Shown here piece after piece: positions 31,944 through 32,355 of a stretch of DNA of 32,355 bases. Location: positions 1 through 32,355 of the forward strand of contig CAIXBT010000321.1 of assembly GCA_903917755.1 (NCBI GenBank), in the 5' to 3' direction. Each line of letters begins with the position of its first letter. Position 1 is the stretch's first letter. The notes below the pieces were generated by a model that was not told the origin of the DNA, did not search any database, and worked only from the letters and a program-made list of their open reading frames with translations. The position numbers and the translations under genes were made by a program. The stretch is from an uncultured Bacteroidota bacterium. GTDB taxonomy: Bacteria > Bacteroidota > Bacteroidia > Chitinophagales > LD1.

Positions 31944-31968
31944 ATGTCGTTTTTGTTTTTTAAGAAAT

Positions 31969-32000
31969 AAAAAAAGCCCCTCAGGGTGACTGAAGGGCTT
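31969..32000 (-). terminator. Intrinsic terminator/attenuator in the cysE-cysK leader
   Basis: Reverse strand: AAGCCCTTCAG-TCACC-CTGAGGGGCTT (11-bp stem, one G-U) running into TTTTTTT; lies before, not after, the operon. Confidence 0.92.
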
Positions 32001-32047
32001 AGAATATATTTTTTTGTTGTGATATACTACATGGCAAATCCCTTCAG
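31990..32047 (-). promoter_or_regulatory. Candidate antiterminator: CTGAAGGG (32047->32040) pairs with CCCTTCAG (31997->31990)
   Basis: Exact 8-nt complementarity between a segment inside the leader ORF and the 5' arm of the terminator; mutually exclusive with the terminator. Confidence 0.75.
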
Positions 32048-32098
32048 CGGCGCTGACTCAGCACAACAACAAACTGCAAAAGGATGATTTCTGTTCAT
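32027..32098 (-). CDS. Cysteine leader peptide (MNRNHPFAVCCCAESAPLKGFAM)
   Basis: Manual translation: ATG AAC AGA AAT CAT CCT TTT GCA GTT TGT TGT TGT GCT GAG TCA GCG CCG CTG AAG GGA TTT GCC ATG TAG; three tandem Cys codons upstream of cysteine biosynthesis genes, with a terminator in between. Confidence 0.82.
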   Translation of the reverse strand: MNRNHPFAVCCCAESAPLKGFAM

Positions 32099-32218: not shown

Positions 32219-32355
32219 ATGAAAGCATTATATGCAATTTTATTTGTTTTTGTTTCTGTCACATTCTCATTCGCTCAGGCACAACAAAAGGGAGTGACTG
32301 TCAACAACAAAGGAGCTGCTGCCAAGAGCAGCAAGGGAGGCGGTGTAGAAGCAAA
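32219..32355 (+). CDS. Secreted protein, 3'-truncated by the window edge
   Basis: MKALYAILFVFVSVTFSFAQAQQKGVTVNNKGAAAKSSKGGGVEA...: clean signal peptide, open to the end of the window. Confidence 0.6.
   Translation, partial: MKALYAILFVFVSVTFSFAQAQQKGVTVNNKGAAAKSSKGGGVEA

Follow-up and report, generated by a model that had tools for sequence, protein, structure and literature searches.

The cysE and cysK genes of an uncultured member of the Bacteroidota are preceded by a short open reading frame (ORF) with three consecutive cysteine codons and by a hairpin, which raises the question of whether these elements form a switch that responds to cysteine. A first, sequence-only reading of the locus had proposed a cysteine-sensing transcription attenuator. 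We find this interpretation supported, as both the anatomy of the locus and the comparison with relatives fit it and an antiterminator co-varies with the terminator. We consider it highly likely that cysE-cysK are controlled by a cysteine-responsive, ribosome-mediated transcription attenuator.

Anatomy of the cysE-cysK leader

We analyzed the window, i.e., the whole stretch of 32,355 nucleotides of contig CAIXBT010000321.1, and located the parts of the locus on its minus strand (Table 1). Direct reading confirmed the 23-codon ORF with the run of TGT codons described in the sequence-only reading, and the strong intrinsic terminator followed by cysE and cysK was also recovered. The terminator has a stem of 11 pairs and is the strongest match of the terminator scan in the region, and the leader region folds somewhat more strongly than shuffled sequences (z -2.0). 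CysK passes the NCBIfam model TIGR01139 with 411 bits (cut-off 351), while CysE exceeds the cut-off of NF041874, an EpsC-type model, but not that of TIGR01172. The leader ORF is the sole short ATG ORF encoding CCC outside the long ORFs of the 32-kb window. Across the whole window, no Rfam family scores at or above its gathering threshold, riboswitch and T-box families included. The plus strand (window positions 32219-32355) holds a divergent gene, which opens with a signal-peptide-like sequence around 120 bp from the leader ATG. Hence, the leader sits in a short promoter region between divergent genes, and the terminator cannot be that of a gene further upstream.

Table 1. Features of the cysE-cysK locus on contig CAIXBT010000321.1
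Feature	Positions	Strand	Remarks
Predicted -7 promoter box TATTTTCG	32115-32108	-	One mismatch to the Bacteroidota sigma-A consensus TAnnTTTG; 9 nt before the leader ATG
Predicted transcription start	~32103	-	Gives a 5-nt untranslated 5' end before the leader ATG (32098)
Leader ORF MNRNHPFAVCCCAESAPLKGFAM, 23 codons	32098-32027	-	Stop TAG at 32029-32027; read directly as ATG AAC AGA AAT CAT CCT TTT GCA GTT TGT TGT TGT GCT GAG TCA GCG CCG CTG AAG GGA TTT GCC ATG TAG
Putative regulatory codons TGT TGT TGT (codons 10-12)	32071-32063	-	Read directly
Antiterminator segment CTGAAGGG, within the leader ORF	32047-32040	-	Complementary to CCCTTCAG at 31997-31990
CCCTTCAG, 5' arm of the terminator	31997-31990	-	Partner of CTGAAGGG
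Intrinsic terminator	stem-loop 32000-31974, T-rich tail 31973-31964	-	Terminator scan
cysE, serine O-acetyltransferase, 269 aa	31943-31134	-	NCBIfam models
cysK, cysteine synthase A, 303 aa	31095-30184	-	38 nt after cysE

Bacteroidota make little use of Shine-Dalgarno sequences, and attenuation through a nearly leaderless leader ORF would be informative about the tightness of transcription-translation coupling in this phylum. The sigma-A box of Flavobacterium, TAnnTTTG, is placed at -12 to -5 in PMC9723704. In 27 of 34 loci, a TANNTTNG box precedes the leader ATG by no more than 25 nt, compared with 2.5 in shuffled sequences, and this Bacteroidota -7 box stands 4-10 nt before most leader ATGs. 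The spacing of the box in 26 loci predicts an untranslated 5' end of 0 nt in 10 of them, 1-6 nt in 11 (it is 5 nt in the window), and a longer one in 5. Going by these starts, which are predicted and not mapped, many of the leaders are probably leaderless or nearly so. Leaderless mRNAs make up just 5.5% in F. psychrophilum, so that their share among these Cys leaders would be unusual.

Conservation and probable translation of the leader ORF

We searched for CysE in 60 relatives, in named GTDB genomes, and in 396 class-level genomes, and read the upstream regions. The sequence-only reading had regarded tandem Cys codons at this place as very unlikely to arise by chance. The codon run alone does not sustain this argument, since a genome-wide pattern search found 511 TGYTGYTGY sites on both strands of the 4.05-Mb genome and 93 for the reversed control. 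At around five times the control, a repeat of this kind is not by itself evidence of a Cys run, and the abundance of such repeats would also favor the fortuitous meeting of a TGT repeat and an unrelated terminator. This explanation is extremely improbable in view of the conservation, co-occurrence, and co-variation of the elements. A Cys-run short ORF on the right strand is present in 21 of the 23 cysE upstream regions of the same family, where dinucleotide shuffles give a mean of 0.13 such ORFs (maximum 1) and the opposite strand gives none. It is absent from the 28 control upstream regions of PF01053 genes. Runs of other amino acids never exceed 4 of the 23 family regions, a value reached by Ile and by Val. 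Hence, what excludes chance is the conservation in relatives, not the rarity of the codon run.

The terminator accompanies the leader. Among the 21 family loci with a Cys-run ORF, 20 have a terminator of -11 kcal/mol or lower after it, so that the ORF, its Cys codons, and the hairpin are kept in close relatives, as the sequence-only reading had asked to be checked. The exception is L002, a sister genome carrying four Cys codons, whose sequence has unread bases exactly where the terminator is expected. Over 175 cysE loci, 29 have leader and terminator, 3 only the leader, 8 only the terminator, and 135 neither (Fisher P 1.5e-22, although related loci are not independent). When 120 loci were scanned, around 90 of them unrelated to cysE, the Cys-run ORF with a terminator was seen only upstream of cysE. 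Within the family, no qualifying Cys leader was found before cysD or before PF01053 genes.

The leader peptides differ almost everywhere except at the Cys residues (e.g., MIRFQNMCCCCSPYRGCKYIL, MKNIPTCCCCCCGATGGGILFLLA, MINKLFCCACCCTP, MFLDQIYMACCKCCFRIREGLAMS), and the ORFs have little in common beyond the Cys codons and a GAAGGG-type segment. The Cys positions use both codons (TGT 110, TGC 31); in each of the 26 loci that have a promoter box, the nearest ATG downstream of it shares the frame of the Cys run, where chance would give one third each. This is not expected of a repeat acting only as RNA; the ORF looks read as protein and we infer that it is translated. One might then suppose that the product is a working small peptide, for example with a metal- or redox-binding CCC motif, and that the terminator is merely the 3' end of its own gene. 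Cys runs are able to bind metals, and the ORF does have its own promoter box and terminator. Yet, beyond the Cys codons the peptide differs from lineage to lineage and has no match in Pfam, the 3' part of the ORF is constrained as antiterminator RNA, and the unit keeps its place in front of cysE, which makes a functional peptide very unlikely.

The antiterminator and the predicted switch

On comparative grounds, the GAAGGG-type segment is the antiterminator that was missing from the first reading, and it co-varies with the terminator arm between lineages. In the window, the pairing of CTGAAGGG with CCCTTCAG has a dG of -13.6 kcal/mol (shuffle P 0.003-0.007). In the relatives, the median distance from the first Cys codon is 24 nt to the antiterminator and 70 nt to the terminator. 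The paired sequences change together: GGAGAGGG pairs with the terminator arm CCCTTTCC in Runella (L053), GCGAAGGG with CCCTTCG in L017, and GGGAGGGACTTGC with GCAAGGCTCTCC in Flavobacterium suaedae (L057). When the arms were swapped between 21 lineages, own pairs had a mean of -12.4 kcal/mol, compared with -9.8 kcal/mol for swapped ones, and none of 20,000 permutations was as good. The pairing was re-optimised for each pair, which we preferred over a fixed register, whose choice favors the own pair. One subgroup (L018, L020, L021, L022) has a short and weak antiterminator. The parts of the proposed attenuator, their conservation, their spacing, and their co-variation are shown by the sequences.

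The position of the antiterminator, free when the ribosome is at the Cys codons and covered when it is at the stop codon, fits the logic of trp and his attenuation. Transcription would begin a few bases before the leader ATG, with a ribosome trailing the RNA polymerase. Under ample Cys-tRNA, the ribosome would pass the three Cys codons, reach the TAG, and cover CTGAAGGG; the terminator would then form and transcription would end before cysE. When Cys-tRNA is scarce, the ribosome would wait at the Cys codons and leave CTGAAGGG free to pair with CCCTTCAG once the latter is made, and the polymerase would read into cysE-cysK. Stalling, termination in vivo, and a response to cysteine or to charged tRNA-Cys are thus what the sequences lead us to expect, and the genes would very probably be switched on only when cysteine runs short.

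We folded nascent RNAs of 30 loci with the ribosome masked at either position. With the mask at the first Cys codon, the antiterminator forms in 27 of the 30; with the mask at the stop codon, it forms in 4, and the terminator in all 30. When the leader RNA is full-length, the terminator still exceeds the antiterminator in stability at 27 of the 30 loci, even in the stalled state. Hence, the switch must be kinetic, i.e., dependent on the order of synthesis; trp attenuation is likewise held to be kinetic. A pause-type 1:2 hairpin competing with the antiterminator has P<0.05 in 4 of 31 loci (combined P 0.0017, the loci not being independent). Judged by sequence and folding, this locus combines the elements of a trp/his-type attenuator: a Cys-run ORF, a terminator before the first gene, and an antiterminator that excludes the terminator.

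Known cysteine leaders and the spread of the probable attenuator in Bacteroidota

The locus shares with the trp, his, and leu attenuators of Proteobacteria the codons of the end product in a leader ORF, an antiterminator overlapping the end of this ORF, and a terminator before the biosynthetic genes. It differs from them in that it concerns cysteine, belongs to Bacteroidota, has no clear pause hairpin, and has a leader ORF that is probably leaderless or has a very short 5' end. Little is known, to our knowledge, about cysteine sensing in Bacteroidota, and the locus provides a concrete, testable cysteine switch with every part located. It also gives a simple rule for finding further members of the regulon: a TAnnTTTG box, a Cys-run ORF starting a few bases downstream, and then an antiterminator and a terminator.

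Cys leaders have been reported in mycobacteria and other Actinobacteria (PMC1262725), and leaderless poly-Cys ORFs of mycobacteria were reported to respond to cysteine in experiments (Canestrari 2020, cited in PMC13236596). As in mycobacteria, the Cys runs described here precede cysteine and sulfur genes; the leader ORFs are leaderless there and probably leaderless or nearly so here. In the mycobacterial leaders, the Cys run closes the ORF and no terminator is conserved, whereas here the run occupies an internal position and is followed by a strong terminator and a co-varying antiterminator. Mycobacteria belong to a distant phylum, and the presence of poly-Cys leaders, probably leaderless, in Bacteroidota as well suggests that this solution arose more than once. 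In Rhodobacterales, uORFC-8-2 upstream of cysS has two Cys codons at positions 14-15 and an intrinsic terminator (PMC8632094). It resembles our locus in the tandem Cys codons of a short ORF that precedes an intrinsic terminator, but it is restricted to Rhodobacterales and to a tRNA synthetase gene, whereas the leaders in Bacteroidota have 3-6 Cys codons (three in the window) and precede cysE-cysK. For F. psychrophilum, a species of this phylum, strong clues were reported that leader peptides encoded before amino-acid biosynthesis operons act by attenuation, in a study whose main text names neither cysteine, cysE, nor cysK (PMC9723704). Within the open-access literature searched, no previous account of a cysteine attenuator in Bacteroidota came to light, and the novelty suggested by the sequence-only reading holds to that extent; the subscription literature, such as Lopatovskaya 2010, lay largely outside this search and priority is not proven. 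The locus is, in our reading, a known kind of switch, described in Actinobacteria and Rhodobacterales, now in a new phylum and with its antiterminator identified.

As judged from the upstream sequences, the attenuator recurs before cysE-cysK across the phylum Bacteroidota. Named carriers outside the family are Runella (L052, L053) and Flavobacterium suaedae (L057), and the class-level carriers belong to several other families (L203, L211, L215, L216, L234, L264). The counterpoint is that, at class level, many cysE genes are not preceded by such a leader and most lack the attenuator. Two cysE loci of Chitinophagaceae (L031, L032) have the Cys-run ORFs MLLLVNCCCSLH and MHTCCCC; no terminator was found at either and both were excluded from the attenuator count. 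These ORFs possibly reflect another mode of control.

A second type of leader is found before cysH. Its ORF closes with 5-8 Cys codons directly before the stop (L141, L143, L271, L273, L276, L280, L292, L294). We found no intrinsic terminator at these leaders. Such terminator-less leaders in related genomes, together with those of mycobacteria, which lack a conserved terminator and for which Rho was proposed (PMC1262725), could suggest that cysE-cysK are also controlled mainly at translation or via Rho, the stalled ribosome exposing the cysE start or blocking Rho and the hairpin being secondary. This is unlikely, since the U-tailed hairpin at cysE is strong, conserved, and tied to the leader, and the antiterminator co-varies with it, which argues for transcription termination. 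For cysE-cysK, we thus retain the attenuator. For cysH, translational control is suggested by L271 and L273, whose Cys codons complement AACAGCAAC, located immediately before the cysH ATG. We lean, by a modest degree, towards a cysteine regulon of Bacteroidota made of largely leaderless poly-Cys leaders in two designs, one with terminator and antiterminator (cysE-cysK) and one without terminator and probably translational (cysH), some of the latter leaders standing behind a SAM riboswitch and sensing the supply of both methionine and cysteine. Two genomes of different families have a SAM riboswitch (RF00162) directly upstream of the poly-Cys leader and cysH (L292:1062-1162 and L294:2506-2649, minus strand), an arrangement that may allow tandem sensing of methionine and cysteine.
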